The position numbers and the translations under genes are program-made. Below, piece by piece: positions 17,653 through 63,482 of a stretch of 64,000 bases of DNA. The notes beneath the pieces were generated by a model, which saw only the letters and a program-made list of their open reading frames with translations, had not been told where the DNA came from and searched no databases. Source of the DNA: Ehretia macrophylla (taxonomy: Eukaryota > Streptophyta > Magnoliopsida > Boraginales > Ehretiaceae). Within the stretch, counting starts at the first letter, position 1, and every line of letters begins with the position of its first letter. The stretch lies in contig CM075783.1 of assembly GCA_037974665.1 (NCBI GenBank), positions 41,801,712 through 41,865,711 of the forward strand. The letters are read 5' to 3'.

Positions 17653-17675
17653 AGGACAACCTACTTTGTTGTCCT
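17653..17675 (+). other. LTR stem-loop H1 (family D, 5' LTR)
   Basis: Arms AGGACAA and TTGTCCT pair perfectly around loop CCTACTTTG. Confidence 0.65.
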
Positions 17676-19131
17676 TAAATGTGTTTATTGATTATATTGT
17701 CATTGTCATCATACTTGCATTGCATCGTGGTTATGCAACCTCATTGTTCGGGCCGGATGTGACGGGCCTCTCTAAGCGGTATTGGGCTTGCTTGGGTTGG
17801 TGCTCTAGCTCCGTACCCTATTCCCTCACTCGTCTGGTATGAAGTATGCCAAGGAGTGATTGGGGGTTTATGCCGGCACATTGAACGTGGTTCGTGGTTC
17901 GTGTTGTGTGATTTATAACGCAAGTGCACGTATCGCAACAAGTAATAAAGTGATAAGTAAAGATCGTTTCCACGAAGACTGTAATTACTAACTACCGAAA
18001 TTAGTTTAGCTTTAACTTTATTCGGACAATCAAATATAAGAGATTATGATTAATAACTAATAACTAAAGTACTTTTGGAATTAACAACTAAAGTGAATAT
18101 GAAATTAATAAAGAGGATAAATCAAGAATTAAAATGCTCTAGGGGTTCCGATTTTACCAAGATTAATCTTATTTGAAACTACTGATTTAAATCAATTGAC
18201 ACATATTCCTTACGTTGCCAGCAATTTCGCTAAGGTAAATATTAATCTTTCTCAAGCATCAATAACCTATCTCAATAAGCAAGCTAACTACATCTCTGTG
18301 ATAACTGTGAACTTATGGAATGCATTAAGCCCTAGAAATTCAAATGCTGCACTAGATCTCATAACTATCTCTAGCTTATGATGATTTAATGGTATTTTAT
18401 ACGTGGTCTAATTTAGTTATCACTTCTCAGTCTCAAACTAAATCACGACTCATGTAATTGTTGATCAGGCAACCACAAGCATTAAACTCAGCATAAAATA
18501 CTCAACGCAAATATGAAATAGTTCATCAATGAATTCAAACTAAAAGCATCAAATATTCAAAATTCGGCTACATCGTAGCCCTAGAAAAATAATCTAGAAC
18601 ATCATAATGAAATTAAATAAAATCCCAATTGTAACGTAAAACATGATAAGAGAGAGAGAGAGAAAACTAGGATTTAGAGAATAATTGGGCAGAAGTCCGT
18701 CTCCGGATCGTTCTTCCGTCTTCAACTCGCGAATCCTCTATTTCTTTTCTTCTCTGCAACGTTTTTTGCTCCCTCTTGATGGTTGTCTCCCAAAAGCTCC
18801 CCTCTCTCACGTTCTTTTCATTCTTTTTAATATAGGGTTTCTTCTTTTTGCGCCTTTTTTACAAAATTGCCCTTAAAAATCATGCGATACTGCGTAGCGG
18901 CGCTATGACTACGCTACTTCTATTTGTTCTTCAATTTCTCCACAAATTGCATGAAAGTTAATCTTTTGCAATTTCTCTTCAATCTTTGCCTCCAAACTTA
19001 GCTTGTCGCTTGAAAATTACCTACAGCTCAAATCAAACGCAAAACGAATCAAATTGCTCATAAATTACTCAAGAACTAACCAAATTTAAGTGAAAATGTG
19101 CTGAAATTATATATCAATAATACACCCAACA

Positions 19132-21773
19132 AACACCCCCAAACTTAAGCTTTGCTTGTCCTCAAGCAAAAGACACAACTAAGGAAAGAAAGAACCTAAA
19201 ACTAAAGACTCAACACAAACTAACTCATGAAAGCAATGTTGTAAGATGGAAAATTTTCACAGCCTCAGTAGCTTTTTCCCAACTCAAGAGGTGACTTTCA
19301 ATCATAAGCATGAGAAATAACAACTTCACATAAGTCTCATTTTACTTCAAATCCCCCAAGTGAGTGTGTGAATAGCCTCTATCCTAATCAATTGTAGTCG
19401 GATGAGTTTATGCAAGTTAAGTGAATCATCAATATGGATCTTTTATTTTCAATCACTTAGGACTTCATAAGCTCACTTTTCATGCCACTTTCCACTAATG
19501 TAGGTTAATCATAGCATTAAAGATCAGTAGGACTTTACATTTGGTTGTAACGTGTGGCTAGGGTCAAGGTAGGATAATGGATATAACATAAGGTTAAACT
19601 ACTTGTAAGCACACAATCATTCTAGGATGTTCAATGGAGCACATACCAACTCTACTTCTTACCACCACAATTATTCAGTATATATCTTTTCTTTCTTTTT
19701 TCATGTCACTTCCTCAACATTTATCCACAACATTTATAAACACATAAAGTCTTCACATTCCCCCAAACTTGCATTTTGATATTAGTTACAAGAGTCTGGC
19801 TCTTCTCATTTCTTTTCATTCTTTTTTTTTCTCAATATTTTTTTTTTGTTTTGTTTTTGTTTTTTTGTTTTTGAAACAAAACAACATATCACCAAATCAT
19901 TGAACCTCCCATCATTCAATACAAAACATGGCTCCATATAATCATCCTAGAACAATCATATGTTACAAGTAGGAAGGTCATAACATGGGAAAATCAAACT
20001 TGACAAGTTAAGGAAGATATTATAAGTTGTATAAGAAAGAAAAGGTTATTTTAGGCTCAAAAGAGTGGACTAGGGATATTCAATTATTACAAGGGTTGGC
20101 TTGAAAGACTCAAACGATCCAAAGATAACCTAAATCATTTCTCTAATGCTATGCAACCTAGGATTTCACCTCGAATGACAATCAAGCAAGTTCTAAAGTC
20201 CTATACTCTTTTTTCTTTTCTCTTTAACTCACATAAACTTTCTCTAAGTATCAACATAACTAGGTGAGGCTAAGTACGCAAGATGTAGGGATTTTCCGTA
20301 AAACGAAGCTATGTTTCAGTCAATTATCCTCATTACCATCATGTACTCCTTACGCTACTCGTCATCGGCCTATTTCTTATCTTTCCAGCATCACTTTCAA
20401 ATTTTGTTTTTTCTCAGTTTTTCAGCTTTTTTTTTCAAAATTTTTTTTTAACATAATAAAAATAACAAAACACATTAAAAAGAAAAACACATAATATGAA
20501 TATTAAAAGAACAAGTTCACACAGGAAAACACATGATAACCACCCCCAAACTTTAAACTAGGCATTGTTCTCATTGTCAAAAGTAAAGAAAAGTAAACAG
20601 AAGACTTCCCTGAATAGTCTCTGCATTCATTGATCGTCTGGGATGTAGTCACTAGCTAGCTGAAATGGGGGTACATCGAGCACATCTTTCAGAGGATATT
20701 GTTATCTAGAATAATCAGTCAATTGCAGCTGTTCAATCAATTTAACATCCAATCTGAATCCTCAAACTGCTCCACTTAAGAAACACAACTTGCCATCACT
20801 ATAAGTTAGTCAATAGAAGCACCGGGCACTCACACTACACGATATCCACAAAAAAAAAAAAAACAACCACATGTTACTCGCACGCCGTCGTCGCTGCTGA
20901 TGCTCTGTTGTCGTTGCTGTGTGAAGTGGATCGGTAGTGGTGGTTGCCTCCGATGAGCTTTACGACATCACTGCTGTCGGTGCCTTCTTCAAGACCCAAG
21001 ACCGCCGTTAGAAAACTCTTATACGCTGCGATCGTCGCTGACCCTCTGTCTTCATCGGTAAGAATGCGTCGTCAGCAAGAGAATCGTGAGCTTTGAGATC
21101 TGAGAGTTTGTGAGATTTTGGTTTGGGTTTAATATGTGGGTTTGATAAATGGGTGTGATATGAGTTGGGTTTAAAAGTTTGGGATTGTAGAAGTGTGGGT
21201 TTAGGTAGTAATATGAAGTGGGTTGTATGGTGCTGATGGGTAGACGGGTTGAAATAAGGAGATTTAGTGACTTCAATTTTTATTTTTTTTCAACGTCAAA
21301 ACACAAGGACGTAAGCGTAGCTGCGCTGTATTTTTTAACGTCAAATTGAAGGACGTAAACGCAGCTGCGCTACGCTTGCGCTATAATTTTCTTTTAGCAA
21401 CGTCTCGTGAGTGTAACTTTTAAACTTCTGGAGCGCAGCTGCGCTATATTTTAGCGCAACCGCACTACTTTCACACCTCTTATTTTCGTTGTTTTTCTCT
21501 TCAAGCTTGCAGTTCATGCAATCCAAACACCAATCTCTCTATATGTGCTCCCTTATTCGACTTGGTAGAACTCCTCTTTGCCTCAGCTTCCCCCCAAACT
21601 TGTTCTTGAACCTATCATGACAAGAAAAATTAACCATTAGTTATGACAACTATAACTCAAAAATTAACAAAAAAAAATAATAAAAACTATTAAATCAAGA
21701 AAAGTAAGAAAATTCGGGTTGCCTTCCGAAAAACGCTTGTTTTAACGTCGACAGCCCGATGGAGCAATTTTTT
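19132..21773 (-). other. E interior between pol remnant and 3' LTR
   Basis: Mostly non-coding AT-rich sequence with T runs. It includes a GC-rich island at about 20868-21060 and the repeated CGCAGCTGCGCT motifs at 21306-21470. No reliable gene is seen. Confidence 0.5.
21306..21470. repeat. Repeated GCAGCTGCGCT palindromic motifs in element E
   Basis: Variants of GCAGCTGCGCTA recur near 21313, 21360 and 21432, the last as the perfect palindrome AGCGCAGCTGCGCT (21432-21445). The first two follow a GACGTAA block. Related GCGTAGCG/GCGCTAC strings occur in both E LTRs near 18893 and 25585. Confidence 0.45.
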
Positions 21774-22139: not shown

Positions 22140-22157
22140 GTTTTTTTGTTTAGTCGC

Positions 22158-23120: not shown

Positions 23121-23144
23121 CTCTGAAGTGCTAGGTAAATTCCC

Positions 23145-27717: not shown

Positions 27718-29350
27718 TGTGACACCTTGAACCCAGCACTTCATTAATTGCATTCATTAAATGGTTAACTTAGATGTACCTTAGCTAATTACTTCATTTT
27801 TTCATATTTTCATAAATTCAAATGTTTCTTTTCATGCATTTTATATTTTTATAAAATATTACATATTTTTAGGGGACTATAGCCCCTGACCGTACGTGTA
27901 TTGCATATCGAGATCAACGGAAAAAAATTCTCGAAATGTCTGATGAATAGTATCAGCGGGATTTTTCAAATTTTTGGCATTTTGTTTTGCTAAAATTTAA
28001 TCACCCAAGTGACACATTTACCCTTACTAAAATGTCCTAATTGCTTGACCCACCCTTTGACCATCTCATGAGAACATTATAAGGCAAGAAACAAAAAAAA
28101 ATGGGTCAAAAAAATGGCCAAAAAAGAGTTACGGGAATAGTAACTTCTCCAAAAAAAAAAAAAAAAAAAATTGCTCCTTGCTTCATTCTTGCTTCCATTG
28201 CTTCCCAAATTGGTTGTGCTTCATCCTTAGTACCTTAAGACCATTCTTTGATCTTCAAAAGAGGTGAGGGTGCATTCTATTCTTGTATTAAATTCAATTA
28301 AAGTTAGTGATATTATTTTTGTAATCTAATATTGTAGTGGTTTAATGCTTGTTCCGTTGTTTCTTATATGCTCTAATGACTTCATAGAATATATTTGATG
28401 GTTTAAAATGCTTGTTGAATGCTTGAAAATAAACATAGCACTTGGGGAAGATGATTGAGTACTTTTGCCATGAAAATGATCTAGAAAATATTTGTGTCTC
28501 GGATTTCGAATTCCTCGCTCGTGTAGGTCCTTGGCATGTTAGATTGACATAATGTGGAATAAAATTGAGGTGTTTTTTGAGAAAATCATGAAAACATACC
28601 TAATTTAAGACGGGGCCGAAAAACAGAGTTGTCTGTTTGCTCGTTTTTATTTAGGGCTTTGTCTCAGTAGGTCATGGAGGCATTTTCCGTGCATTTATGA
28701 CGTCGGTTGGGGTTTCGGGTGATATAGCTCCTTTGTAAAACCGTAAGAGGGAAATCAGGATTTTTGGATAAACATAGGCGGAACTGGGGTTTCATAACTT
28801 TTAAGTGGGTCATAAAATGTCATTGAATGAGGTGTGAAGTTGGTTTTGAGTTTGGTTATCATATGAGTTCATAGGCGCATAATTTCTATTAACTTTAAGC
28901 ATAATAGTTGAAATTGAGAATTAGACTTTTGTTAGCTTGAAATGTCGCACCATATGCTTCCTATATTGATTGTCATTGCATTTCATGGCTATATTGCTTA
29001 GTTGAATAATATATAGACCGAACATTGTTAAATTCTTATATGATGTGAACTTGCTTATATCGGTTATAAATGTTAGCTATGTGAATCCTCGTGATAAATA
29101 TATATTCTATTGCATGATAGGGTCGATCCATTGAGTTGTTTCTTGTATCTTGGAGCTCGGTAAAGGTGAGGGTTGCATCATACTTGGCATCTTAACTGAT
29201 TCATTAATTTTTCATTATGATGGTTATCGTGTAGATTATGAGTTATTGTTTAATTACTTTAATTGTATTGTTATGTGCTCGTTTATATGTCAACTAGGAA
29301 GTATTATGTTATCTAGGTTACAAATGCTTGTTAGTGGAAATTCATGTACG

Positions 29351-29374
29351 AAGATAACCTACTTTGTTGTCCTT
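29351..29374 (+). other. LTR stem-loop H1 (family D, 3' LTR)
   Basis: Arms AAGATAA and TTGTCCTT around CCTACTTTG, with one G-U pair and one mismatch. It is a decayed version of the perfect stem in the D 5' LTR. Confidence 0.5.
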
Positions 29375-29571
29375 AAATGTGTTTATTGATTATATTGTCA
29401 TTGTCATCATACTTGCATTGCATCGTGGTTACGCAACATCATTGTTCAGGGCGGATGCGATAGGCCTCTCTGGGCAGCATTGGGCTTGTCGGGGTTGGTG
29501 CTCTAACTCCATACCCTAGTCTCTCACTCGCCTGGTATAGAGTATGTCAGGGGGTATTAGGTCGTAGGATC

Positions 29572-29590: not shown

Positions 29591-30462
29591 ATTAGAGTGA
29601 TTGGGGGTTTATGACAGCACATTGAACATGGTTCGTGATCGGAGATAAGAGAATTCTGGAGTGTTGGGGTTAAGAGTATCGTATCCTTTGATATGTATGG
29701 TTATTTGCTATTTCAGTTGTACTTTACTTGTTTTTATTGCTTAATTGCTATAATTGTCGCATTGCACGCTCCGGGTAGACTTTATCCCTCACTGAGCAAT
29801 AGTGGTTGCTCATACCTCGCTAACATGTTTCAGAAGGTGCTGAGGTTGAACCCCAGCTTGATTTAGTTGAGGGTGAGGAGCAAGTGGTACAGGCAGAACA
29901 GTTACCATAGTTGCTGTGTTCTTTGTTCTTGAGGTGGATGTGTTTCTGCTGTTATGTGGAGAATCTACTAGTTGTTTATGTTATATTTTGGAGCCTTGAG
30001 CTCATGTATATATTGTTTAGTTGTAAGTTTGAATTTAATCTATGATAAGTATCCATGGCATGTAATAACTAGCATTCTTACATTTAGTTTGATGCATGCT
30101 TGTGTGTTGGTTGTGGGGGTTAAAATGGTTGTCATTAAATTCTAAGTATGTTTAAATGTTATCATAGAATGGTATGATAAGTGGTTTTTGTAAAGAAGTT
30201 ATACTTGGAATACATCCTTGTATGTATTTATATTGTCTTGTGCTGTTTAAGGCTCGGATGACCTTGAAGTTGGGATTTCCATTAGAAATGTTGTTCTTTT
30301 TACTTCGTGGCTTTATTTGAATGCTTACAGGTTTTCGCAGTGTCCACGATACAGGGGAGACTCTCTCTATTTCCCCTAAAATTTTATGACTTGGGTTTTG
30401 GATCGGGTTGTGTTTAGTGGATATATAGAGCTCCTATTTCCGTGAAGGGACGGCCCGTTACA

Positions 30463-30697: not shown

Positions 30698-30892
30698 ATT
30701 CAATTATGGATATATACTTATGGATGTAATATATGTACATATAGATCTTTTTTTCACACAGTGACTACTTCAGGAATTAAATCAAATAGGCCTATTTAAC
30801 TTAATGGCAGAGTAACGCTTGGTAAGGCATAAGTTATCAGTTCAAATCCGATAACGGGCTTTGGTTATAGCTGTTAGGCAATGTGGGGACGC
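30698..30892 (+). repeat. First unit of the ~240-bp trnT-bearing tandem repeat, copy 2
   Basis: The left part of the unit; its end continues at 33365-33408 after solo LTR A2. It is clearly diverged from the second unit (33409-33650), so the repeat pair is older than the segmental duplication. Confidence 0.6.
30790..30860 (+). pseudogene. Plastid trnT-GGU-like tRNA pseudogene, first unit
   Basis: 71 nt with anticodon GGT in CTTGGTAAG. It is more decayed than the second-unit copies (2706-2777, 33503-33574). Probably not functional. Confidence 0.55.
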
Positions 30893-32304
30893 TGGCGTGT
30901 GACACCCGAGAATTTTACCCTAAAATTATTATAATCGTTGCATACTTATGTGCGCATTTCTACGTGCATCATTTTTCTTGTTTAATTGTTTTTGTTGTGG
31001 GTTACTATTCATAATATTTTTGACTGTTTCAAAAGCTTGATTTTAAATTTTTCCTAGGTCACTCGACATTTAAAAGGAACCAAGAAATTTTCGTTTTGAA
31101 CTTTCGAGCTTAGGAGTATGCGTTTGAAAAATATTTTCCGTGAACTTTGAATAGTGTTACGTTAGAATAGTACTAGTATTAAATTAAAAGCATTTGGAAT
31201 TTCAATTAGCCATTAGTTGATCAAGATTATAGACTAATTAGCTTACATTATCTAGTCTTGCACCACATATAATATTAGCCAACTTATTAAATTAAAACAT
31301 AAGCTTATTCTTGTCAACAAAAACAATTGCAAAAATTCCATCCATGTCCCCTAGCCTTGGCCGTCCACTTCAAGGAGGAAAAAGAGGATTTTTGCTTCTT
31401 CAATCTTGCACTTTGAGCTATTAGATTGATCTTGGGAGGATTTTGAGCAACTTAGGACCTTCAACAAAGCTTCTCCATCTTCAAAATTGTGAGGGAGTCT
31501 TATTTTCTTGAGTTTAAAGTTTATGTGCATATGTTCAATTTTATTGATTTGTCAATTATAGCTATATATCTTGTTATGAATGCTTCCTATGAGTTATTTA
31601 ATGTCTATAGAGCTAACTTTTGTGGTGTGATAACAAATTTAATGGTTGAATGTTGAATTTGATCAAAGAGATGATGAATAGTGCCTAAAACTAGGGTTTT
31701 GAGAAAATTTGCTAATTGGCTTGAATTGATGCCTCAATTAGGTGCTCTAGACCCTAGGGAAGGTAATTGAAAAGCCACGTTAGGTTGAATCACTCGAATT
31801 TGAACTTTAGTGCATAAATAGCTTACTTTAAAAAGGAGGTTTTGCACGTTAGGCAATCCGGGCAAATTTGGGCATCGATTTGGGTATCCTTGAGCTAAGG
31901 AAGCACCTTTGGTGCTTTCGTTTCGCGAAATTGGGGTTCGGTTAGTATGGCTATAGTTCAAACCCGTTCGGGGCCTTCCCGAACTTTTGCTTCAAAAATG
32001 AGTTTTAGTGACTTTAAAGGGTATCTTTGAGCTTAATTAGGAATATAGAAAGACTAGGGTATGATTGGGAATCTCGAACCATGCTTAGGAGAAAGAAAGC
32101 TCGGTTAAAGAAAGGGGAAAAAGTAGTTTTTAGCCTTTTTAGTTGCAATTGGAACTTGTTGTGTGTTAGTAATGCCTTGCATTGAATAATTAGGATGTAT
32201 TTAAGTTATTTGAGTAGATTATTGGAATTAATTGTGTTGATTGCTTCTTTTGGCATCTATTAGTTAATATCGTGCATATATGAACTTTTATTGTGCATAT
32301 ATGT

Positions 32305-32330
32305 GAGGGCGGCCTACTTTGTCGTCCCTC
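32305..32330 (+). other. LTR stem-loop H1 (family A, A2)
   Basis: Arms GAGGGCG and CGTCCCTC with one bulged T around GCCTACTTTGT. Confidence 0.6.
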
Positions 32331-32551
32331 TTACGTGTTATGTGTTATATTGATTGTTTGTGATTTGTATTGGGTTGCGCAACCTTTATCGGACATGGTA
32401 GCGTCGAGAAACACGGGCGGCATCGGGCTTGCCGTGCTCCCTCGACTACCATGGTGCCTATTCCCTTCTCGTTGAGGCATACTCCACTACCCCAGAGGCG
32501 TGGTTCACCTGCTGGGCATGGACCTACCTCAGGAGAAGGGGTCGTAGGATC

Positions 32552-32572: not shown

Positions 32573-33502
32573 AATTGTGGTGTTGGGGTTTGCCGGCATA
32601 TTCGTGATACTTGTGGATCGTGGCTCGTGGATGAAGTCTTGGAAGTGGAACCGTATCCTTTTTAAAGTGATTAATAGTTTGACTTATTGTCTTGTTAGTT
32701 TATGTGTCTTGTATATATGTTTACTTGTGTTGCATATCATATTGCACGTTGGCATGCTGCATCACCTCCCTCGCTGGGCAACTTTGTTGCTCACTCCTCA
32801 TTTGAAATGTTTCAGGAGAAGCTGAGGTGAATCCCCAGCTGTTAGAAGTAGGAGAAGAAGAAGAAGTTCAAGTAGATCAGAATCAGTGATCTTGTGTGCT
32901 GAGGTGGATTTTTATGTGCTTCTTACGTGGAGTTCTTGTTATTAATGTATTTTGAGACTTTAGAGTCTTGTATATATATGTCTAGTAGATGTGTACTAGG
33001 ATGTTAAAGAAAGTTGTTGGATTGTAATAATGAATTCTAGACTTTAATTTTCCCTTGCATGCTTGGAGTGTTTGTTAATCTTCATATGAAACTTAGAAGT
33101 TTATTGTATTTAATTACTTATGACTAAAACCAACTTATCTCGCATGCTTGTGTGCTTTAGCAGAATATTGTTGCTCCAAGGCTCGGATGGCCTTGTGATT
33201 GTGTTTTGGCTTTGGAGTTATTGTGGATAAGTTGTTGCTTTTAGTTCAGATGTCTTGAATGAATGTTTACAGGTATCAGTTTTGTCCTTGGTACAGAGGA
33301 GACTCTGTCCGAGTGACGGGTCCGAACCTGACTATTAACGTGGGGTTGGGTTCGGGGCATTACATGGCGTGTCCCAGCTGATGCCAGAGGGTGGTGGATA
33401 ATCCGTTCATATTCAATTGTAGATATATACTTTTGTATGTAATATATGTACATATAGATCTCTTTTCCACACAATGACTATTTCATGAATTAAATCAAAT
33501 AG

Positions 33503-33574
33503 GCCCATTTAACACAATGGTAGAGTAACGCCATGGTAAGGCGTAAGTTATTGGTTCAAATCCGATAAGGGGCT
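33503..33574 (+). pseudogene. Plastid trnT-GGU-like tRNA pseudogene, copy 2 second unit
   Basis: Counterpart of 2706-2777. It keeps the anticodon-arm bases GCCATGGTAAGGC closer to the plastid gene than copy 1 does. It has the same acceptor-stem mismatch and is probably inactive. Confidence 0.6.
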
Positions 33575-34665
33575 TTGGTTTTCTGCCGTTAGGCAATGTG
33601 GTGATACTGGCGTGTCCCAACCGATGCCAGAGGGTGGTAATTAATCCATTCTATATCTCGTGAGTTGGTTGAGTGGGAATTTTCCTCACAAAGCAAAAAA
33701 AAAGTGTATGATTGTTCAAATATTCACATTGATGAACAAGGTAGTCATAGCCTATAAGATTTGTGTATATTGATACATAAAATGTGTATGCTCTCTCACA
33801 TGAGTATAATGTTAGCATACGCTTACATGTAGGGATTCACATCCTCTTGTATATATAGAAGGACTAATATTAACCATCTACTTAAATTTTAGTCTAAAAT
33901 AATAATAATTAGATCAAACACACCTAAACAAGTTACATTAAATTTTGTGAAGTTATTCTTAACCATCATTTGATAACCATAAATTTCTCCTTTTAATTCT
34001 TTTTCTCTTTCCCTGCTACCACTCATCTCTGTGTTTTTCACATGATTGAACATTAAAAATTTCATGAATAGAGTAGATATAGACAAAACTTAATAAATTT
34101 CAGGAATCCCACTTATATATTTTTTTCAACAAATATAAACTATGTATATACAAAATATATAACATGGACAGAGAAAGAGAGAGTTGGGGTTTTTCTAGAG
34201 AGAAAAAAAAAGAAAGAGGCAAGAGAAATTTGGGAGAAATTTTGAATTTTAAAATTAATTGTGTAATTCATTAGTTTTGAATGTTTAATTCAAATGGTTA
34301 AAATATTTTATAGTTGAAATTGGGATGGAAGGTCTAAATCATCTCTTTTTTTGCTAATCAGGTGAAAATGATTCAATTAAAACTCCAACTCAAAAGTTTA
34401 TAAAGTCAATTCGAGAAAAAATGCTACCTCTACTAAAAAATATCACCTAATCTCTGATTAGCGTGTATGTAATTCATTTGTAACTGTTCTCCTAATTATT
34501 TTACATTTACAAAGTCAAATTCAACTCTTTTATATACTGATAGAATCAAACAACTAAACAATATGGATCCATACAATAATCGCACATTGTATGTGTATAG
34601 GTGACTCAAGCAACTTCTCAGGCACAAATGTTGCCATTCCCAACCGTATTTTTGTGAAAATTAGC

Positions 34666-45733: not shown

Positions 45734-48152
45734 TGTCACGCCCCAACTCGACCCCACCTATAATCAGTCAGGACGCAACGGAATTTCGGCGGCATAACGA
45801 CAGTAAACAGATTTCCGAGGTTCTAAACCAACCTCATAAAACATCATACATCCAGTAATTCCTCAATACAAACAACAACATACAACACAACCATATTATA
45901 CAATAAACATCCTCGTTATACGCCTCCGTTCCAACATGACATACAATACTTCAACTTTATCATACATTTCAAAAGTAAGTTGAGACACAACTACAACTTA
46001 ACCATAGACAAAAGAAAGCCACTAAATTAACATCGTTTGGATCATCATCTTTCAACATCTATTACAATAAGAACCATTAAGCATATAAAAGTCTATTAAG
46101 CTAATATACATTACATTAAACAACATATAATCATGGATAAGACTCGGGAACATATGACTCGTCCACGTAAGGCACATCTTCCTCCTCAGGAGGCACGTAC
46201 CCGTAATCCGGCTCTGCAACACCTGTAAGCATGCAATAATAGAGAGTGAGCTTATATACATAAGCCCAGTGAGGATCCGATAGATCTCGACAGTATTCAC
46301 TACACTCCTTGGATTTAGTCCTTTGAGCAAGTAAACACACAACAACAATAATAACATTATCATCACATAACTATATAACCATTCATTAAAGGATACTCTA
46401 TTTGGTGTAGCTCCAAACGCCATCACGATCTCAACCGTTCTTCTTATAACTCCCCATTACTCACGCACCCGAGGTACCTCACTAGCCCCTCCCTCCATGA
46501 CACCTCCGTCATGCGAGCTGGGGGTAGCCTATGGCAGTCATGCCGTTATCAACCCGACAGCCCGACGCTGAGAGGTGGCACAAACATACCAAGACTCCAT
46601 AATCATCAATCATCAATCAATCATCAATCAATCAATTGGGAGATCAGCAACAAAAGTGCCCGATTCCCGAACTCAATAATAATCAATCAATAACATCAAT
46701 ATAACATCAATATTAAATTAAACAACAAACAACGTAGTTAGATGACAAAGTAGGGCATCTAACCGGACATGCATAATATACATAATTACACTCTAAATTA
46801 CTCATCAACCACTCCCCATTCATCACTCGAACACTACCCAACCATCTAAAGGCATCGTTCAAGAAATTAAAGAATGACAACCTAAACTTCTAAAATTCAT
46901 AACTTACAATCTACTAATCCAAACATTGCCAAATCAGTTCCTATCACTCACCCATTCAACCTACTACATTAGCCCTCTCGGAAATCCACCATAACACCTC
47001 CAAATCATGCCCGACAACCCTAAAACCCTAAGATGTCTTGGCTGGATTTTTCGGATTTTCACACAAACAATGTAATCGAAAATTCGGCATTACAACAGCG
47101 CTAACACGTAATTATCAAGTATTTAGAAATCGACGGCAATCGATTTCGATCAACACAACTCATTTAATTCAACTTTGAACATTTTAACCAAAATTAAATA
47201 CCCGAAATATAAAAATTATGCTACATCCGACAGAAATTCGTAGTATTAGTATATAATGATCCCTAGCATGCAAGGAGCAATAATCTATCATCAGATTTCA
47301 ATTCTAACGGTTCAATCTTCATTTATACGCAAAAACACAAAAATGACATTTTGAGATCTAGAATTTTTCTCTCACCTTAGATGCGATATAAGCCTAGGAA
47401 TGCGTGCTATGCGTGCCCAACAAGCAGAATCCAAGTCGGTGCGAAGTTTCACGGACAAAAACTAGGTTTTTCTTTGAAAAATTGGATTGAAAAGCTTGAG
47501 TTTTCTCTTCTCTTTTTCTCCCTCTTTCTCACGGCAATGTGTGTGTTTGTGGAGTGTGTTTTGTGTTGTGTGAGTGTGTGTAGGTGATAGTATATAATTA
47601 AAAGCTTGGTCAATTAAAAAAATGCAAAGTCAAAGTTAGTTTAAATAGGTATTTTTGTGTTTTTAATGACTTTAATTGCATTTTATTGCTCACCAAATTA
47701 AAAATAATTATGCAACCCCCAAGATATCTCAAGTGGATTATTTTTAGGTGACAAGAAGTTTTACAATCCAACAATTTCACCCGAGTCGGCTTAAAACTCG
47801 ATTTTTTGCAAAAGTCGGTGTAAAAACCCTAATAAATTCTTAAGCCGATTTTAAAACCGTTTTCATCAAACACAGGTCTATTAAAGTCCGTGGACTAGGT
47901 CTAGAAGGGTTAAAAAGACCAATTTCAAAATTTTAGCGGACGTGTTTCGAAAATACTATTCACTGAAAATCGACGATAAAATTTCTAACTCCGTTTTTGA
48001 TGAAAATTTCATGAATGCACATTTAGCACGTATTAGGAGTATTGACATCAAAATTATAACTTTCTAGGTCCTATAGCACATAAACAGATCATATGCACGC
48101 AAAACGAGGTATAGCACGTAAAACGAGATAAGCAGGAAAGTGGGGTTTCACA
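45734..48152 (-). repeat. 3' LTR of the family C element
   Basis: 2419 bp. H1 is at 46737-46763. Next to the polypurine tract of the minus-strand element. Confidence 0.85.
46737..46763 (-). other. LTR stem-loop H1 (family C, 3' LTR)
   Basis: Arms GTTAGATG and CATCTAAC as in the other family C LTRs, with one base change in the loop. Confidence 0.6.
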
Positions 48153-51100
48153 TTCTCCCCTCCTTATAGAAATTTCGTCCTCGAAATTCTTACTTGATGT
48201 ACGGAAAAGATCTGGGTATTGCTGCTGCATCTGATCTCGTCTCTCCCACGTAGCTTCCTCAATGTCGTGATGCTTCCACAACACCTTAACCATCGGAATC
48301 CTCTTCGACCTCAACTCTCGGTCCATCTGATCTAGAATACGAATCGGACGCTCGTCATAAGTCAAATTCTCTCGAAGCTGTAACGGCTCTGGCTCAAGAA
48401 TATGAGAAGGATCCGGATTATATTTCCGCAAATTAGACACGTGAAATACATCGTGGACATTAGAGAAGTTCTCCGGTAAAGCCAACCGATATGCCAACTT
48501 ACCAACCCTGCCAGTAATCTCAAACGGCCCAACAAATCTCGGACTCAGCTTTCCACCTTTACCATAACGAGCAAACCCCTTTCGAGGAGACAATCTCAAG
48601 AAAACCCGATCTCCAACTGCAAACTCTAAGTCTCGACGACGCTTATCAGCATAACTCTTGAATCTACTCTGTGCCGTAAGCATTCTCTGCCTGATCAACT
48701 GAACATTCTCAATCTTCTCAAGAAATTCTGGCATGATAGTCGGATCAACAGTCTTCATCTCTCCTACCTCGTCCCAATACAAAGGTGAACGGCACTTACG
48801 ACCGTAAAGAGCTGCGAAAGGCGCCATCCCAATAGTAGCATGATAACTATTGTTATAGACAAACTCGGCAAGTGGTAGATGTTTCTCCCAGTTCTTCCCG
48901 AAGTCCAGAACACAAGCCCTAAGCATATCTTCCAGAATCTGAATAGTCCGCTCAGACTGACCGTCGGTCTGTGGATGATACGCTGTACTAAAGTTCAACT
49001 GAGTACCTAAGGTCTCCTGAAGTTTCTCCCACAAACGAGAAGTAAATCGAGGATCTCGATCAGAGACAATACTAGATGGAATACCGTGAAGTCTAACAAT
49101 CTGATCCAGATAGAGGTCCGTCAACTTTGTAACCTCATCTCCCAACCTCATGGCAATAAAATGAGCTGTCTTCGTCAAACGATCCACGACAACCCAAACT
49201 GCATCATTACCCCTCGGTGATCTAGGCAAACCAGTGACGAAGTCCATCGTAATATGCTCCCATTTCCACTCCGGTATAGCCAACGGCTGAAGCAAACCTG
49301 CTGGTCGTTGATGCTCGGCTTTCACTCTCTGATAAGTCAAACATCTAGACACAAACTGAGCAACCTCCCTTTTCATGTTGTTCCACCAGTAATGTTGCTT
49401 CAAATCCCGATACATCTTGGTTCCACCGGGATGAATAGTATATTTAGAATTATGAGCTTCCTCCAGAATACCTCGCCTCAAGCTCGGTTCATCGGGAACA
49501 CAAACCCTGTTCCGAAACCGAAGAATACCGTCCTCATGCAGTTTGAAGTCAGACTGATCATCCATGATCTGATCCTTGATCTTCTGAAGTTTAACATCAA
49601 GCTGCTGAGCTTCCCTGATCTGAGACAATAATAAAGGCTGAATACGGAGATGTGAACACATCACCCCAACCTGAGTGAACTCTGGTCTCCAATAACTAAA
49701 CTCCTCAAGAACCTCCCACTTCTTGACAGCCAAACAAGAAATACTAGCCTTCCGGCTGAGAGCATCTCCTACAACATCTGCCTTTCCAGGCAGATAATTG
49801 ATAGAACAATTATAATCTCCAAGAAGCTCCATCCACCTCCGCTGGCGCATATTCAACTCCTTGTGTGAGAACAAGTACTTCAGACTCTTATGATCAGTGA
49901 AAATTTCAAACTTGCTTCCCCACAGATAATGACGCCACTTCTTGAGTGCAAAGACAACCGCTGCCAACTCAAGATCATGAGTCGGATAATTTTCTTCATA
50001 AGGCTTCAACTTTCGAGAAGCATAGGCAATAACTCGGCCATCCTGCATAAGAACACATCCCAAGCCCTCCTTGGATGCATCACTATAAATGACCATATTA
50101 TCGGTCCCCTCTGGTAGAGCAAGTACTGGAGCGGTAGTTAACCTCTTTTTCAACTCCTGAAATCCACTCTCACACTTCTCGTCCCAATTAAAGATAGTCC
50201 GTTTCTGAGTCAACTTAGATAGTGGCCCCGCAATCTTTGAGAAGTCCTTGACAAACCTACGGTAATAACCCGCCAAGCCAAGAAAGCTACGGACATCAGT
50301 AACACTCTCTGGCCGCTTCCAAGACATCACCGACTCAATCTTAGTGGGATCTACGGAAATACCACTCTGTGTAATAACATGGCCAAGAAAAGAAATCCGT
50401 TGCAGCCAAAATTCACATTTGCTGAACTTGGCAAACAACTGATGCTCCTGCAACTTCTCTAATACAAGCCGTAGATGTTGCTCGTGCTCCGATTCAGATT
50501 TAGAATAGACCAAGATATCATCAATAAAAATCACCACGAACTGGTCCAAGTACGGCTGAAAGACTCGATGCATAAGATCCATGAATGCTGCCGGTGCATT
50601 AGTCAATCCAAATGGCATAACAACAAACTCATAATGCCCGTACCGAGTCCTGAAGGCAGACTTCGGAACATCGTCTATGCGAATCCGAAGCTGATAATAC
50701 CCCTGCCTCAAATCAAATTTAGAATAGACTTTGGCTCCCTGAAGTTGATCAAACAACTCATCAATCAGCGGCAAAGGATATCTATTCTTGATGGTCACCT
50801 GATTCAAACCACGGTAATCAATACACAATCTCAAAGTACCATCCTTCTTCTTCACAAATAAGACTGGAGCTCCCCAAGGTGAAGAACTCTGCTGAATGAA
50901 TCCTTTCTTCAATAACTCCTGTAACTGAGTCTTCAACTCCTTCAACTCAACTGGTGCCATCCGGTACGCCGATTTAGAAATAGGTTGAGTACCGGGAACA
51001 AGATTAATCACAAACTCTATATCCCTCTTTGGCGGCAATCCTGGCAACTCCTCGGGAAATACATTAGGATATTCCCGAATAATAGGGACTTCCTCTAGCT

Positions 51101-51164
51101 GTAGCTTATCAGATGGCTTGTTGATCAAATAAGCTAGATAACCCGAACACCCCTTACTCACCAA
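48054..51164 (-). CDS. Pol region of the family C chromovirus
   Basis: A 1036-codon stretch covering, in order, reverse transcriptase ([11 protein letters not shown] near residue 213), RNase H ([11 protein letters not shown] near 365), integrase with zinc-binding and catalytic regions ([32 protein letters not shown]), and a C-terminal chromodomain ([14 protein letters not shown]). The chromodomain places it among chromoviruses; with 2.4-kb LTRs and a Met primer it fits Tekay/Del. The frame runs across the polypurine tract about 100 nt into the 3' LTR. Part of a fossil element. Confidence 0.85.
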
Positions 51165-51236
51165 CTTAACGGCTTTAGTTGCTGAGATAACAAAACTCGT
51201 CTTAGCACCCCGGTTACCCGCTACTTCTACTACTGG

Positions 51237-52931
51237 CTAATCTGGCAAACGAAACTGTACTACCTTGGTTCTACAGTTCAACTGGGCATCATACTTAGAA
51301 AGCCAATCCATACCCAGAATAACATCATACCCCCGGATTGGAAATAAAATAAGGTCCGAAGGAAAATTATGCCCCTTAACATGTATTATACAATCCTTAC
51401 ATACTAAGCCAGTAATATACTTATCAGTCAAAGAGGTACTAATCTCAACCACATAAGGCAATCTTTCAGGTTGCAATTTAACACGTTGCACACAAGCAGG
51501 AGTAATGAAAGAATGCGTAGCACCAGAATCAATCAACACTTTAACAAGTTGATCAAGTATAAGGAAGTTACCTTCCACAACTGCAGTCTCCTCAGGCATC
51601 TCCTCCATATCAACTGCGTAAGCCCGAGCCTGAACCCGCTGCTGCTGTGGTACACTGCCTGTAGGCTTACCCTGGTAACCCTGAGTCGCTGCCCGACCCT
51701 CAGTCCTCGCATATCTAGGGCAATCCTTCGCCCTATGCTCGATGCTACCACAACCCAAACATGTCCCTGCCTTTACCCTGCAGTCGGACTCCACATGCCC
51801 TGGGCGCTTGCAGTAATTACACTGCAATGATGTGGCACTAACACTGCCCCTAGAAGAACCAGAAGCTGATGAAGCAGCTGATACAGCCTGCAGCTGAGGT
51901 CTCACCACACTAGGCCTGTACTGACTCTGAGACTGCGCTGGCCTATACTGAGTCTCACCCTGATATGGCCTCTGCTGAAACTGAGGCCGATAGTAACTCT
52001 GCTGACCCTGTGGCCTATAAGAACTCTGCTGGGCTGGTGGTCTGTAGACAACCTGCTGTACTGGAGGCCTATATATAACCTGCTGGCCATGTGGCTGATA
52101 CGGCCTCTTACTAGGCTGACTGGAGACAATCTGATCCCCTTTCCTCTTCTCTAACCTAGAAGCTGCATCAAAAGCCTCAGTGAAGATATCATAGCGATTC
52201 AGAGCCATTGCATCCTGAATCTCGGGCCTCAATCCCAACATAAATCTACGGGTCTTCCTCTCCTCCACAGCTACAAACTCCGGTGCATACCGGGACAACC
52301 TAGTGAATGTAGCCTCATACTGAGCCACAGTAGAATCCCCCTGCACCAAGGACAAGAACTCAGCCTCTCTCCTCTCTCGTGCAACCCTCGGGACATACTT
52401 ATCCCTAAAAGCAGTCAGAAAGGTATCCCAAACATACGGAACACCCCGGGTCTCCCAACTGGCTCTCACAGTGCGCCACCATTCCTCCGCCTCATCATCA
52501 AGCAAATAGACAGCACAAGTCACCTTCCGCTCATCAGTGTACCCGAGAGAATCAAAAATTTTCTCTAACTTGCTAATCCACGACTCGGCCTTCCTATCAT
52601 CAGGCTCTCCCTGAAATCTAGGAGGATAGTACCCCAGAAACTCCTTCATAGTGCCTCGACCGTGATTACCTCCCTGTACATTCTGTATCTGAGCCTGCAA
52701 CGCCTGAGTCTGAACTGCCTGACCTGCTAACAACTGGGCCTACCCAGCCATCAAATCTGCAATCCGATCCATTGCTGACTCTAACCTGCCATCACCCCTA
52801 TCACTGCCCTGTGCCACATTACCAATAACCTCATCTACAATCTCGGGCCTACCACGAGTCCTCGGTCTACCGGCCATCGTACTAATCAAAGAGTTAGCAC
52901 AGGTTATAGCACATAAACAGGTTATATACAA
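51237..52931 (-). CDS. Gag-protease region of the family C chromovirus
   Basis: Gag family core (FLGYYPPRFQGEPDD, then AVYLLDDEAEEWW), a long Gln/Tyr/Pro-rich repeat segment, two CCHC zinc knuckles (CNYCKRPGHVESDC; CLGCGSIEHRAKDC) and an aspartic protease with the LIDSGATHSFI active site. The N-terminal end lies near 52.93 kb. Part of a fossil element. Confidence 0.85.
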
Positions 52932-53153
52932 CTTTTAACACATAAACAACAAACTCATATAAAGCACATAAATCACATAAGTTTCCATCACATAAGCAAA
53001 TTGATCACATAATCACATAAGCACTTAAATCACATAATCACTTAATCATTTAATCATATCAATACATATTTCACTTTTCTTTCTTTTCATACATATTTCA
53101 TGCTAAGACCATTACCCACATTCCGAGAATACCCCGGCTGACAACTAACATGC

Positions 53154-53165
53154 GCTCTGATACCA
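53154..53165 (-). other. Primer-binding site of the family C element (initiator tRNA-Met)
   Basis: TGGTATCAGAGC on the minus strand, 7 nt inside the 5' LTR (53173-55596). Confidence 0.85.
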
Positions 53166-53172
53166 CTTAAAC

Positions 53173-55596
53173 TGTCACGCCCCAACTCGACCCCACCTAT
53201 AATCAGTCAGGACGCAACGGAATTTCGGCGGCATAACGACAGTAAACAGATTTCCGAGGTTCTAAACCAACCTCATAAAACATCATACATCCAGTAATTC
53301 CTCAATACAAACAACAACATACAACACAACCATATTATACAATAAAACATCCTCGTTATACGCCTCCGTTCCAACATGACATACAATACTTCAACTTTAT
53401 CATACATTTCAAAAGTAAGTTGAGACACAACTACAACTTAACCATAGACAAAAGAAAGCCACTAAATTAACATCGTTTGGATCATCATCTTTCAACATCT
53501 ATTACAATAAGAACCATTAAGCATATAAAAGTCTATTAAGCTAATATACATTACATTAAACAACATATAATCATGGATAAGACTCGGGAACATATGACTC
53601 GTCCACGTAAGGCACATTTTCCTCCTCAGGAGGCACGTACCCGTAATCCGGCTCTGCAACACCTGTAAGCATGCAATAATAGAGAGTGAGCTTATATACA
53701 TAAGCCCAGTGAGGATCCGATAGATCTCGACAGTATTCACTACACTCCTTGGATTTAGTCCTTTGAGCAAGTAAACACACAACAACAATAATAACATTAT
53801 CATCACATAACTATATAACCATTCATTAAAGGATACTCTATTTGGTGTAGCTCCAAACGCCATCACGAACTCAACCGTTCTTCTTATAACTCCCCATTAC
53901 TCACGCACCCGAGGTACCTCACTAGCCCCTCCCTCCATGACACCTCCGTCATGCGAGCTGGGGGTAGCCTATGGCAGTCATGCCGTTATCAACCCGACAG
54001 CCCGACGCTGCCCGAGAGGTGGCACACACATACCAAGACTCCATAATCATCAATCATCAATCAATCATCAATCAATCAATTGGGAGATCAGCAACAAAAG
54101 TGCCCGATTCCCGAACTCAATAATAATCAATCAATAACATCAATATAACATCAATATTAAATTAAACAACAAACAACGTAGTTAGATGACAAAGTAGGCC
54201 ATCTAACCGGACATGCATAATATACATAATTAAACTCTAAATTACTCCTCAACAACTCGCCATTCATCACTCGAACACTACCCAACCATCTAAAGGCATC
54301 GTTCAAGAAATTAAAGAATGACAACCTAAACTTCTAAAATTCATAACTTACAATCTACTAATCCAAACATTGCCAAATCAGTTCCTATCACTCACCCACT
54401 CAACCTACTACATTATCCCTCTCGGAAATCCACCAGAACACCTCCAAATGGTGCCGGACATCCTTAAAACCCTAAGATGTCTTGGCTGGATTTTCCGCTT
54501 TTTCCCACAAACAATGTAATCGAAAATTCGGCATTACAACAGCGCTAACACGTAATTATCAAGTATTTAGAAATCGACGGCAATCGATTTCTATCAACAC
54601 AACTCATTTAATTCAACTTTGAACATTTTAATCAAAATTAAATACCCGGAAAATAAAAATTATGCTACATCGGACAGAAATTCGTAGTATTAGTATATAA
54701 TGATCCCTAGCATGCAAGGAGCAATAATCTATCATCAGATTTCAATTCTAACGGTTCAATCTTCATTTATACGCAAAAACACAAAAATGACATTTTGAGA
54801 TCTAGAATTTTTCTCTCACCTTAGATGCGATATAAGCCTAGGAATGCGTGCTATGCGTGCCCAACAAGCAGAATCCAAGTCGGTGCGAAGTTTCACGGAC
54901 AAAAACTAGGTTTTTCTTTGAAAAATTGGATTGAAAAGCTTGAGTTTTCTCTTCTCTTTTTCTCCCTCTTTCTCACGGCAATGTGTGTGTTTGTGGAGTG
55001 TGTTTTGTGTTGTGTGAGTGTGTGTAGGTGATAGTATATAATTAAAAGCTTGGTCAATTAAAAAAATGCAAAGTCAAAGTTAGTTTAAATAGGTATTTTT
55101 GTATTTTTAATGACTTTAATTGCATTTTATTGCTCACCAAATTAAAAATAATTATGCAACCCCCAAGATATCTCAAGTGGATTATTTTTAGGTGACAAGA
55201 AGTTTTACAATCCAACAATTTCATCCGAGTCGGCTTAAAACTCGATTTTTTGCAAAAGTCGGTGTAAAAACCCTAATAAATTCTTAAGCCGATTTTAAAA
55301 CCGTTTTCATCAAACACAGGTCTATTAAAGTCCGTGGACTAGGTCTAGAAGGGTTAAAAAGACCAGTTTCAAAATTTTAGTGGACGTGTTTCGAAAACAC
55401 TATTCACTAAAAATCGATGATAAAATTTCTGACTCCGTTTTTTATGAAAATTTCATGAATGCACATTTAGCACGTATTAGGAGTATTGACATCAAAATTA
55501 TAACTTTCTAGGTCCTATAGCACATAAACAGATCATATGCACGCAAAACGAGGTATAGCACGTAAAACGAGATAAGCAGGAAAGTGGGGTTTCACA
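53173..55596 (-). repeat. 5' LTR of the family C element
   Basis: 2424 bp. H1 is at 54181-54207. Differences from the 3' LTR are partly clustered around 54410-54520. Confidence 0.85.
54181..54207 (-). other. LTR stem-loop H1 (family C, 5' LTR)
   Basis: Perfect GTTAGATG / CATCTAAC arms with the GCCTACTTTGT sense loop. Confidence 0.6.
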
Positions 55597-58500: not shown

Positions 58501-60301
58501 TTTTCTCCCAAAGCAAAAGTTTCATTAGCAATGTCACACAGTTTGACATTAAACTCAGTAATCGTTTTTTCCCCATGCATCCCTATCTCTTCAAATTCAG
58601 TGGCCAACATTTGCAATTTAGATCTTCTGACTGATGTTGTTCCTTCATATGTTGTTTGCAATATCTCCCAAGCTTCATTAGCAGAATCACACGTTGAGAT
58701 TAGCTTGAATTGGTTTAAATCAACAACATTGAATATTGCATTCAGCGCCTTGGAGTTCCAGTTCGCCAACAGATCTTCCTCCTTGGTCCATTTTGTTTCA
58801 AGTTTTGTTACAACATTGTCCTGAGTATCCGTAGTGGTAGGAGTTGTCCAACCTGTCAAAACCACTCTCCAAGCCATCTCATCAATCGAAATTCCCTTAT
58901 TCTAGCCTTCCAATAATTTGCACCATCCAGCAGTGTGAAACCCCACTTTTCTGCTTTAACTCGATTTACGTGTTTTATCTCGTTTTGCGTGCATTTGACC
59001 TGTTTATGTGCTATATGACCTAGAATGTTATAATTTTGATGTCAATACTCCTAACACGTGCTAAATATGCATTCATGAAAATTTCATCAAAAACGGGATT
59101 AGAAATTTTATCGTCGATTTTCAGTGAATAGTATTTTCGAAACACGTCTGCTAAAATTTTGAAACTGGTCTTTTTAACCCTTCTAGACCTAGACCACGGA
59201 CTTTAATAGACATGTGTTAGATTAAAACGGTTTTAAAATTGGCTTAAGAATTTATTAGGGTTTTTACACCGACTTTTGAGAAAATTGAGTTTTAAGCCGA
59301 CTCGGGTGAAAGTGTTTGATTGTAAAACTTCTAGTCACCTAAAAATAACCTACTTGAGCTAGCTTGGGTGTTGAATAATTGTTTTGAACTTTGGTGATCA
59401 AGAAAATGCATTTAAAGTCAAGAAAACACAAAAAAATGCTAAGTTTCAACTTTGACTTTCATTTAAATGGTTGACCAACAAGCTTATATCATCAACACAT
59501 ACTCACAAAGCACAAAAACACCCCAAAAACACACACAAAACCGTGGCTCCTTGAAGGAGAAAGATGAAGGCATTTTCAAAGCATTTTTCTCATAGATTTT
59601 GCATTTCAAAGCCGAATTGAGTGATTCAAAGCTTGATTTCCCTTGTTTGGCATCCATTCTACACATTTCTTGCATCAAAACACATCAAAGGTGAGAGAAA
59701 AATTCTAGATCTCAAAACTCATATTTTGTGTTTATGCGTATAAATGATTATTGAACCGTTAGAATGTTAATATGATGTTAGATTATTGCTCCTTGCATGC
59801 TAGGGATCATTTAGCTGTAATACTACGAGTTTTTATCGGTTGTAGCATAATTTTTATTTTTCGGGTATTTAATTTGATTAATTTGTTCAAAGTTGATTAA
59901 ATTGAGTTGTGTTGATCAGAATCGATTGCCGTCGATTTCTAAAAGTTTGTTAATTACGTGGTAGCGCCGTTGTAATGCCGAATTTTTTATTGTGATGTTC
60001 GTGCCAAAATTCAGAAATTTCAGCCATGACATCTTAGGGTTTTAGGGTTATTGGGCATGATTTGGATGTGTTTTGGTTGGTTTCCGAGGGGGCTAATGTA
60101 GTTGATTGAATGGGTGAGTGTTTGAAACTGATTTGGAGTTGTTTGGATTAGTAGAATGTAAGATATGACTTATTGAAGTTTAGGTTATCTTTCTTTAAAT
60201 TGTTGAATTGAGCCTTAGTTGATTGGGTGTGGTTTGAGTGATTGAATTGTCAGTTGATGATGGGTAAACTAGGGTTTGATTGTGTGTTTAATGCATGTTC
60301 G

Positions 60302-60328
60302 GTTAGATGGCCTACTTTGTCATCTAAC
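60302..60328 (+). other. LTR stem-loop H1 (older family C fragment)
   Basis: Perfect GTTAGATG / CATCTAAC arms with loop GCCTACTTTGT, retained although the LTR around it is diverged from the young copies. Confidence 0.6.
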
Positions 60329-60374
60329 TTAGTTGTTTGTTGTTTAATTAAATATTGATGTTATATTGATTATT

Positions 60375-60860: not shown

Positions 60861-61813
<953 letters not shown>

Positions 61814-63458
61814 TGTGACACCCCGAACCCAGCACTTCATTAATTGCATTCATTAAATGGTTAACTTAGATGTAACTTAGCTAATTACTTCATTTTTTCA
61901 TATTTTCATAAATTCAACTATTTCTTTTCATGCATTTTATATTTTTTAAAATATTATATATTTTTAGGGGACTATATCCCCTGACTGTGCATGCATTGCA
62001 TATCGGGATCAACGGTAAAAGATTCGCAAAATGTATGATGAATAGTACCAGCGGGATTTTTTTAGATTTATCAGATTTTTGGCATTTTGTTTTGCTGAAA
62101 TTTAATCACCCAAGTGACCCATTTACCCTAACTAAAATGCCCTAATGGCTTGACCTACCCTTTGACCATCTCATGAGAACATTATAAGCCAAGAAATATA
62201 TAAAAAAAAAGGGTCAAAAAAATGGCCAAAAAAGAGTTACGGGAATAGTAACTTCTCCAAAAAAAAAAAAAATTTGCTCCTTACTTCATTCTTGCTTCCA
62301 TTGCTTCCCAAATTAGTTGTGCTTCATCCTTAGGACCTTAAGACCATTCTTTGATCTTCAAAAGAGGTGAGGGTGCATTTCATTCTTGTATTAAATTCAA
62401 TTAAAGTTTGTGCTATTATTTTTGTGATCTAATATTGTAGTGGTTTAATGCTTGTTCCGTTGTTTCTTATATGCTCTAATGACTTCACAAAATATATTTG
62501 ATGGTTTAAAATACTTATTGAATGCTTGAAAATAAAAATGGCACTTGGGGAAGATGATTGAATAGTACTTTTGCCATGAAAATGACCTAGAAAATATTTG
62601 TGTATCGGATTTCGAATTCCTCGCTCGTGTAGGTCCTTGGCATGTTAGATTGACATAATGTGGAATAAAATTGAGGTGCTCTTTGAGAAAATCATGAAAA
62701 CAGACCTAATTTAAGTCGGGGCCAAAAAATAGAGTTGTGTGTTTGCTGCTCGTTTTTATTTAGGGCTTTGCCTTAGAAGGTCATGGAGGCACTTTCCGTG
62801 GATTTATGGCGTCGGTTGGGGTTTCGGGTGATATAGCTCCTTTGTAAAATCGTAAGAGAAAAATCGGGATTTTTGGATAAACGTGGGCGGAACCGGGGTT
62901 TCATAGCTTTTAAGTGGTCATAAAATGTCCTTGAATGGGGTGTGAAGTAGGTTTTGAGTTTAGTTATCATATGAGTTCATAGGCGCATAATTTCTTTTTA
63001 CTTTAAGCATAATAGTTAAAATTGAGAATTAGAATTTTGTTAGCTTGAAATGTCGCACCATATGCTTCCTATATTGATTGTGATTGCTTTTGATGGCTAT
63101 ATTGCTTAGTTGAATGATATATAGACTGAACATTGTTAAATGCTTATATGATATGAACTTGGTTATATCGGTTATAAATGTTAGCTATGTGAATCCTCGT
63201 GATAAATATATATTCTATTACATGATAGAGTCGATCGATTGAGCTGTTTCTCGTATTTTGGAGCTCGGTAAAAGTGAGGGTTGCACCATACTTGGCATCT
63301 TAACTGATTCATTGATTTTTCATTATGATGGTTATCATGTAAATTATGAGTTATTGTTTAATTACTTTAATTGTATTGTTATGTGCTCATTCATATGTTA
63401 ACTAGGAAGTATTATGTTATCTAGGTTACAAATGCTTGTTAGTGGAAATTCATGTACG

Positions 63459-63482
63459 AAGACAACCTACTTTGTTGTCCTT
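63459..63482 (+). other. LTR stem-loop H1 (family D, copy 2)
   Basis: Arms AAGACAA and TTGTCCTT around CCTACTTTG, with one mismatch. Confidence 0.5.

Follow-up and report, generated by a model that had tools for sequence, protein, structure and literature searches.

The window considered in this study is a stretch of 64,000 nucleotides from the genome of Ehretia macrophylla (GenBank assembly GCA_037974665.1, contig CM075783.1, positions 41,801,712 to 41,865,711), in which nine retrotransposon long terminal repeats (LTRs) carry a hairpin, here called H1. That H1 is a real structure is near certain, that the structure is under selection is strongly supported, and it likely acts as RNA rather than as DNA. 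An earlier reading of the sequence alone (the sequence-only reading) had listed packaging, dimerisation, translation and protein binding as possible roles. Packaging appears the most plausible of these and is favoured here, because H1 lies in what is likely a leader intron and a derivative without gag has retained it. The full proposal, that H1 is the packaging signal of unspliced genomic RNA, for which I infer splicing, presence in the packaged RNA and a binding partner, is put forward tentatively, with somewhat less than even confidence.

The H1 Hairpin in the Window

The word CCTACTTTG occurs nine times in the window, always flanked by paired arms, as compared to a mean of 0.52 and a maximum of 3 in 100 shufflings of the window that preserve dinucleotides. 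All nine copies reported by the sequence-only reading are present (Table 1). Scored with a covariance model of the 33-nt hairpin, they reach 37.8 to 46.6 bits and the next match in the window 10.6, a gap that arises partly by construction, since the model includes the families of the nine copies. They do not amount to nine independent cases: they come from the three families originally named, A, C and D, to which a C-like subfamily has been added. As claimed, each family has its own complementary arms, GAGGACAA/TTGTCCTT in D (a perfect inverted repeat), GGTTAGATGG/TCATCTAAC in C, and GAGGGCGG/TCG(T)CCCTC, with a bulged T, in A. On folding, the first C of CCTACTTTG pairs with its last G, and the real loop is thus the heptaloop CUACUUU. 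In one copy (L023:1567-1599) the closing pair is U-A instead of C-G, and the heptaloop is unchanged. Some copies in the window show decay, with A opposite C at 29358 and 63466 and a G-U pair gone at 46754. The distance from the LTR start to the loop, put earlier at 1.4-1.65 kb, is 1399 bases in C and in a further family, E (L057, 1754 to 3153), and 1415 bases in A (L054, 169 to 1584).

Covariation of the Arms across the Genome

The same genome (1.58 Gb in 20 contigs) was searched with two patterns, which overlap in family A. CATNNNNGN9CCTACTTTG found 9,912 matches (4927+4985), as compared to 15 (7+8) for the reversed pattern, and GAGGNNRRCCTACTTTGYYNNNCCTC found 13,886 (6883+7003), as compared to none (0+0). 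Additional arm types appeared in families E (GAGGTCAA/TTGATCCTC), F (GAGGTTAG/CTAACTTCC) and G (GGTATTGCGA/TCGCATACC) and at locus L114 (GGTGA/TCACC). In all, 126 loop records were folded, from loci some of which overlap the copies in the window. Three loci (L106, L108 and L109) were drawn with a pattern that forces purines at -1/-2 and a pyrimidine at +1; the strings from GAGGNNRRCCTACTTTGYYNNNCCTC, forced at both arms, were excluded from the pair counts, and a single unpaired loop copy (L058, 1 of 50 distinct) was excluded from the alignment and from the arm-swap test.

The remaining 49 distinct copies, of ten arm types, align without gaps over 33 columns, and covariation was measured in this larger set. 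In the ten-pair stem 87.8% of cells pair, as compared to 71.3% when the letters of the 3' arm are shuffled (none of 500 shuffles reaching the observed value), two-sided changes occur at nine of the ten pairs (equalled by 2 of 500 shuffles, the one measure of five that any shuffle reached), and the covariation score is 0.555 against 0.287 (again reached by none of 500), values to be read in the light of a control that related sequences inflate, the shuffles keeping relatedness and the null being shuffles without a tree. When the partner is slid by one to three columns, the score falls to 0.106-0.265. RNAalifold recovers nine of the ten pairs, and in each of the seven family stretches folded (360-820 nt) the minimum-energy structure includes H1. 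The five innermost pairs are standard in every arm type (50/50 in the ungapped register), and arm letters differ by 59% on average between types. Exchanging arms among the ten clusters raises the mean arm energy from -10.7 to -5.9 kcal/mol, and none of 20,000 permutations matches the native value.

Because ten arm types pair in register, with two-sided changes at nearly every pair and swapped arms faring worse, the earlier claim of a structure selected through compensatory change is strongly supported. It might be supposed that H1 is an old relic, shared through ancestry, carried by active families and now functionless, and copies within a family do bear unpaired mutations in their arms. Drift would hardly produce two-sided changes across ten arm types while leaving the loop in place, and I regard a relic as the least credible explanation of all.

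The structure likely acts as RNA, because G-U accounts for 9 of the 93 family-level pairs when the sense strand is read (these would be C-A on the other), although the sense strand folds better in only six of the ten types (antisense in three, with one tie). RNA of the sense strand is thus modestly favoured. A role as DNA, either as a cruciform or as an inverted repeat bound by protein, could appeal to the perfect inverted repeats of some families, such as D. It is very improbable, given that the arms vary freely in sequence but keep their pairing, and that the G-U pairs, good in RNA, are poor in DNA.

The loop, described by the sequence-only reading as fixed, is conserved strongly but not absolutely. 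In order to sample H1 independently of its loop, 13 loci were chosen through a second hairpin, H4, that lies further downstream. The 201-nt stretches upstream of these H4 matches, which have unusual stems, contain the exact loop in five cases (L111, L112, L114, L119 and L122). Altered loops are seen in L110 (CTTACTTTG), L116 (CCTCTTTTG), L120 (CCTCTTTTT) and L121 (CCTATTTTG); L116 and L120 have well-paired arms, L110 and L121 poorly paired ones. No clear H1 lies within the 201 nt fetched from L113, L115, L117 and L118. Separately, L108 has a second H1-like hairpin (676-708, loop CCTACTCTG, 14.7 bits) about 127 nt upstream of H1.

The LTRs were said to be hard to align. This holds for C, which gives no blastn match to other families, and nearly for G, with one weak match; stretches that can be aligned are shared among A, D, E, E2 and F. 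Gag of C and E2 are 44% identical over 95 columns, so the families have diverged. No family of Rfam release 15 matches H1 at curated score in the window or in L104-L107; the matches that were found are three tRNAs and one snoR71 in the window and, in L104-L107, one 5S rRNA above the cut-off and two matches below it (E 0.91-0.99). The H1 pattern has no match in the viral contigs of IMG/VR. Relatives were also sought there with a loose H4 pattern, which returned at least 120 stretches; these were taken as chance, and the H1 model finds none in the 80 of 120 searched.

A Candidate Leader Intron

An intron running from the LTR to the start of gag is a likely candidate, judging from motifs and composition. 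Ten of 15 loci carry the donor-like motif GTGAGRG on the upstream side of H1 (8 of the 9 with at least 800 nt upstream and 2 of the 6 with less), namely A, C, D, E, E2, F (displaced), H (L108), F2 (L109), L110 and L121. It is retained in 21 of 22 C-type copies examined, and the reversed and complemented motif is found in none of the 15 loci. At the other end, YAG stands 4-9 nt before the ATG of gag in all five leaders (A, C, C2, E and E2, the C2 copy being without its primer-binding site (PBS) region), with a chance of about 0.06-0.24 each. The candidate intron of family C contains 37.1% T, as compared to 23.3% in the presumed exon 1, whose start is assumed from the position of the TATA sequence, and 23.0% in gag. 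Plant introns are described as U-rich in the available part of one account (PMC3735527). There are 83 ATGs in the candidate intron of C, where composition predicts 47.5 (maximum of 500 shuffles, 65), and none in its presumed exon 1. An acidic reading frame beginning after an acceptor near H4, noticed by eye in A and C, was also considered and rejected; by eye, it is not kept in E, F or G.

With 83 ATGs between donor and gag in C, ribosomes that simply scan would have little chance of reaching gag on unspliced RNA. H1 might relieve this difficulty by promoting translation past the leader, through internal entry or a ribosome shunt. Such a role is improbable: in C some 1.3 kb separate H1 from gag downstream, derivatives without gag occur in a family that carries H1, and splicing would be a simpler solution.

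A Gag-less Derivative

Amongst the first 100 matches listed, 12 spacings between H1 copies on the same strand are of 3.4-3.7 kb and 13 are of 7.4-7.7 kb, one of the latter belonging to family A. A gag-less derivative of family E (L246), 3.5 kb in length, is thus about as common as 7.5-kb pairs among those matches, and it sometimes appears as three LTR hairpins at equal steps. The one copy that was read has a PBS, a polypurine tract (PPT) and about 1.04 kb without an open reading frame (ORF) of 60 amino acids. Compared with the leaders, it matches those of E and A around the PBS only and that of E2 not at all. What it has in common with its presumed helper is the LTR with H1, the PBS and the PPT, and its retained parts therefore point to packaging or replication rather than to expression of gag.

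The derivative bears as well on the suggestion that H1 governs the splicing of the leader intron or its export, with a host RNA-binding protein on the loop keeping part of the RNA unspliced. H1 does sit between donor-like and acceptor-like motifs, and its loop is rich in pyrimidines and remains so in the variants CUCUUUU and CUAUUUU. The single gag-less unit read is without the gag-start motif of E, TCTAGCTA, yet its LTRs are those of an H1-bearing family, with the AG after H4 still available. I consider control of splicing unlikely, though deserving of serious attention.

A Packaging Signal of Unspliced RNA?

The packaging proposal may be set out as follows. H1 would be a selected stem-loop of chromovirus LTR transcripts, in which a variable stem presents the near-invariant heptaloop. 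With a donor-like site upstream and an acceptor-like site abutting the start of gag, H1 would be kept only in unspliced RNA. It would be one hairpin of a domain of several (H1 to H4), which Gag or a host protein would recognise on genomic RNA, and the arms would be able to drift so long as pairing holds, the loop being the part recognised. A broader scheme, possible but rather doubtful, is a division of RNA as in retroviruses: the leader intron would be spliced out for messenger, its covarying hairpins would mark the genome, and gag-less relatives would exploit the signal.

Several observations weigh against the packaging proposal. GTGAGRG is displaced in F and was not found in G or in L114, L116, L119 and L120, each of these four having only 26-166 nt upstream. 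The presumed exon 1 of E2 has two ATGs. In A, C, E, F and G a second AG follows H4 by 21-24 nt and makes the acceptor uncertain, H1 being inside the candidate intron with either acceptor. Four junction searches for spliced copies of LTR or gag gave 0, 0, 1 (chance-like) and 0 matches, none convincing. The patterns fit part of the copies: of 22 C-type loci, 5 have the donor half of the pattern of the second search, 9 its acceptor half and 1 both. The lack of spliced copies fits both an absence of splicing and a loss of the PBS from spliced RNA; such copies are not expected in the latter case, because RNA without a PBS would not be copied. Finally, the gag-less derivative shares the whole LTR and so is not specific to the retention of H1.

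A contact between the loop and another RNA would also yield a fixed loop and free arms, and H1 might in this way aid reverse transcription (strand transfer or primer placement) or dimerisation. In A and E2 there is an exact partner of the loop, AAAGTAG, at 180-193 nt upstream, and in A and E H1 is followed by a palindromic hairpin, GGTTGCGCAACC. The exact partner is present in only two of the eight stretches searched (with G-U allowed, there are single sites elsewhere in F and G and none in C, D and E), and a conserved loop-loop partner inside the LTR was therefore rejected. CUACUUU is not self-complementary, as the loop of a dimer initiation stem-loop would be, which makes dimerisation through H1's own loop unlikely. 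A likeness to a tRNA anticodon loop and additional pairing with initiator tRNA were considered as well and set aside. Help to reverse transcription or dimerisation through another RNA is on the whole quite unlikely.

The covariation and near-fixed loop of H1 make it a bait with which to look for the binding protein and a route to testing the mobilisation of gag-less derivatives. H1 also provides a means of recognising LTRs from families that cannot be aligned with one another.

Neighbouring Hairpins and Other Features

H1 is the first of several hairpins. H4 has the form CCTCACTG-stem-GCTCA, and its pattern has 24,711 matches in the genome, as compared to 5 for the reversed pattern. H4 covaries as well: across 32 distinct strings drawn from the first 100 matches listed, pairing holds in 91 of the 96 cells at inner positions that the pattern does not force, where shuffling predicts 47 (0 of 20,000 shuffles reaching 91). 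Between H1 and H4 are placed, downstream of H1, GGTT-four bases-AACC (the middle being GCGC in A, E and E2, GTGC in F and ATGC in D) and a GC-rich hairpin that contains GGCGGCATCGGGCTTGCC or a similar sequence, this one in families A, E and F. The palindrome GGTTGCGCAACC is found as well at 9061 and 39863 of the window, within segments (8738-9087 and 39540-39889) that are 82% like the LTR of A; no exact H1 loop accompanies either segment in the window's list of exact words.

Table 1. Positions of hairpins, candidate splice sites and the family C element. Positions are those of the window unless a locus is given; CM, covariance model.
Feature	Position	Strand	Evidence
H1, family A	1188..1220	-	exact loop, paired arms; CM 41.2 bits
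H1, family D	17648..17680	+	exact loop, paired arms; CM 44.2 bits
H1, family D, decayed 5' arm	29346..29378	+	exact loop; CM 37.8 bits
H1, family A	32301..32333	+	exact loop, paired arms; CM 41.2 bits
H1, family C solo LTR	42346..42378	-	exact loop, paired arms; CM 43.7 bits
H1, family C 3' LTR, G-U pair lost	46734..46766	-	exact loop; CM 40.1 bits
H1, family C 5' LTR	54178..54210	-	exact loop, paired arms; CM 43.7 bits
H1, C-like subfamily	60299..60331	+	exact loop, paired arms; CM 46.6 bits
H1, family D	63454..63486	+	exact loop, paired arms; CM 41.4 bits
H4, family C 5' LTR	53687..53714	-	position; covariation family-wide
H4, family C 3' LTR	46247..46274	-	position
H4, family C solo LTR	41866..41893	-	position
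H4, family A	32769..32793	+	position
H4, family A	726..750	-	position
H4, family D	29787..29812	+	position
Two hairpin-like blocks after H1 (GGTT-four-AACC; GGCGGCATCGGGCTTGCC or similar)	window 32373, 32416; L104:803, 850; L105:1382, 1424		
Candidate 5' splice site GTGAGAG, C LTR	54813..54819	-	
Candidate 5' splice site GTGAGGG, family A LTR	31489..31495	+	
Candidate leader intron, family C, 1938 nt (H1, H4, LTR end and PBS inside)	52882..54819	-	motifs and composition
Family C element: two LTRs, PBS TGGTATCAGAGC, gag, protease, reverse transcriptase (RT), RNase H, integrase, purine tract	45734..55596	-	Pfam on six pieces; ends
5' LTR of family C element, 2424 bp, H1 loop at LTR base 1399	53173..55596	-	

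The family C element has a target duplication of 5 bp (GAAAA), and its empty site was found. By its gypsy-order domains it is a plant chromovirus (Ty3/gypsy), the chromodomain match being weak (E 0.00058 and 20.2 bits, below the cut-off of 25.1, Pfam on six pieces). The available text of PMC3605345 characterises the CRM clade by a chromodomain downstream of the PPT and an ORF that extends into the 3' LTR. That clade was rejected for C: its ORF does end 99 nt inside the LTR, despite which the chromodomain match (about 48207-48323) precedes the purine tract, which lies at the LTR edge, 48152. Tekay elements, according to the same text, have long LTRs, 2561-2743 bp for unflagged Beta LTRs; those of C are 2424 bp, with the 5-bp duplication. 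Gag-protease and RT-integrase of C share one frame, with a single stop codon between them (51237-51239).

A segment of the window is doubled (2600-16197 and 33397-59294, about 97% identity). The second copy is interrupted by the solo C LTR and the full C element, for which the first copy provides the empty sites. There are tRNA-like sequences at 33502-33575, 2706-2777 and 30790-30860, the first read as tRNA-Thr (GGT), which I take to be perhaps plastid-derived. Elsewhere, at L104:1801, the end of an E-family LTR adjoins 5S rRNA gene sequence, with a full 5S gene (2408-2526, Rfam 108.9 bits) about 600 nt further on, and the LTR looks to have inserted in a 5S array.

Comparison with Known Systems

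Retroviral Psi consists of RNA stem-loops near the 5' end, essential parts of which lie downstream of the splice donor and are therefore present in unspliced RNA only. H1 would resemble it as a stem-loop downstream of a donor, here a donor-like motif. It differs in being inside the LTR and upstream of the PBS, the candidate intron around it measuring about 1.9 kb, and its role in packaging is a proposal. No sequence relation between the two is known.

In the open-access literature, searched mostly through listings, no account was found of a defined RNA structure for the choice of genomic RNA in plant gypsy elements. Profile models of LTRs link residual conservation in long R regions to stem-loops, a remark that, in the available part of the paper, concerns retroviruses, its chromovirus model being the Sushi element of fish rather than a plant element (PMC3601003). 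Plant LTR elements with spliced RNAs include Ogre and EVADE, with introns, and Tyran and Varan of sunflower, with isoforms, and a review considers introns exceptional in such elements; these accounts, so far as their available parts go, name no LTR-to-gag leader intron in chromoviruses (PMC12786077, PMC7730604). The sunflower study, in its available part, reports spliced elements, and Tekay, the largest family, is absent from the expressed set (PMC7730604), so RNA evidence may be hard to obtain.

The copia elements BARE1 and BARE2 of barley offer the other comparison, as presented in the available part of PMC3735527. They maintain separate pools of translated and packaged RNA, with a facultative U-rich intron, and the gag-less parasite is said to retain signals for dimerisation and packaging. 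They differ from the elements considered here in being copia and in having a small intron within gag, and that part of the account mentions no such hairpin; what they would have in common with the H1 elements is such a division of RNA, a U-rich intron (a candidate in the present case) and a gag-less relative.

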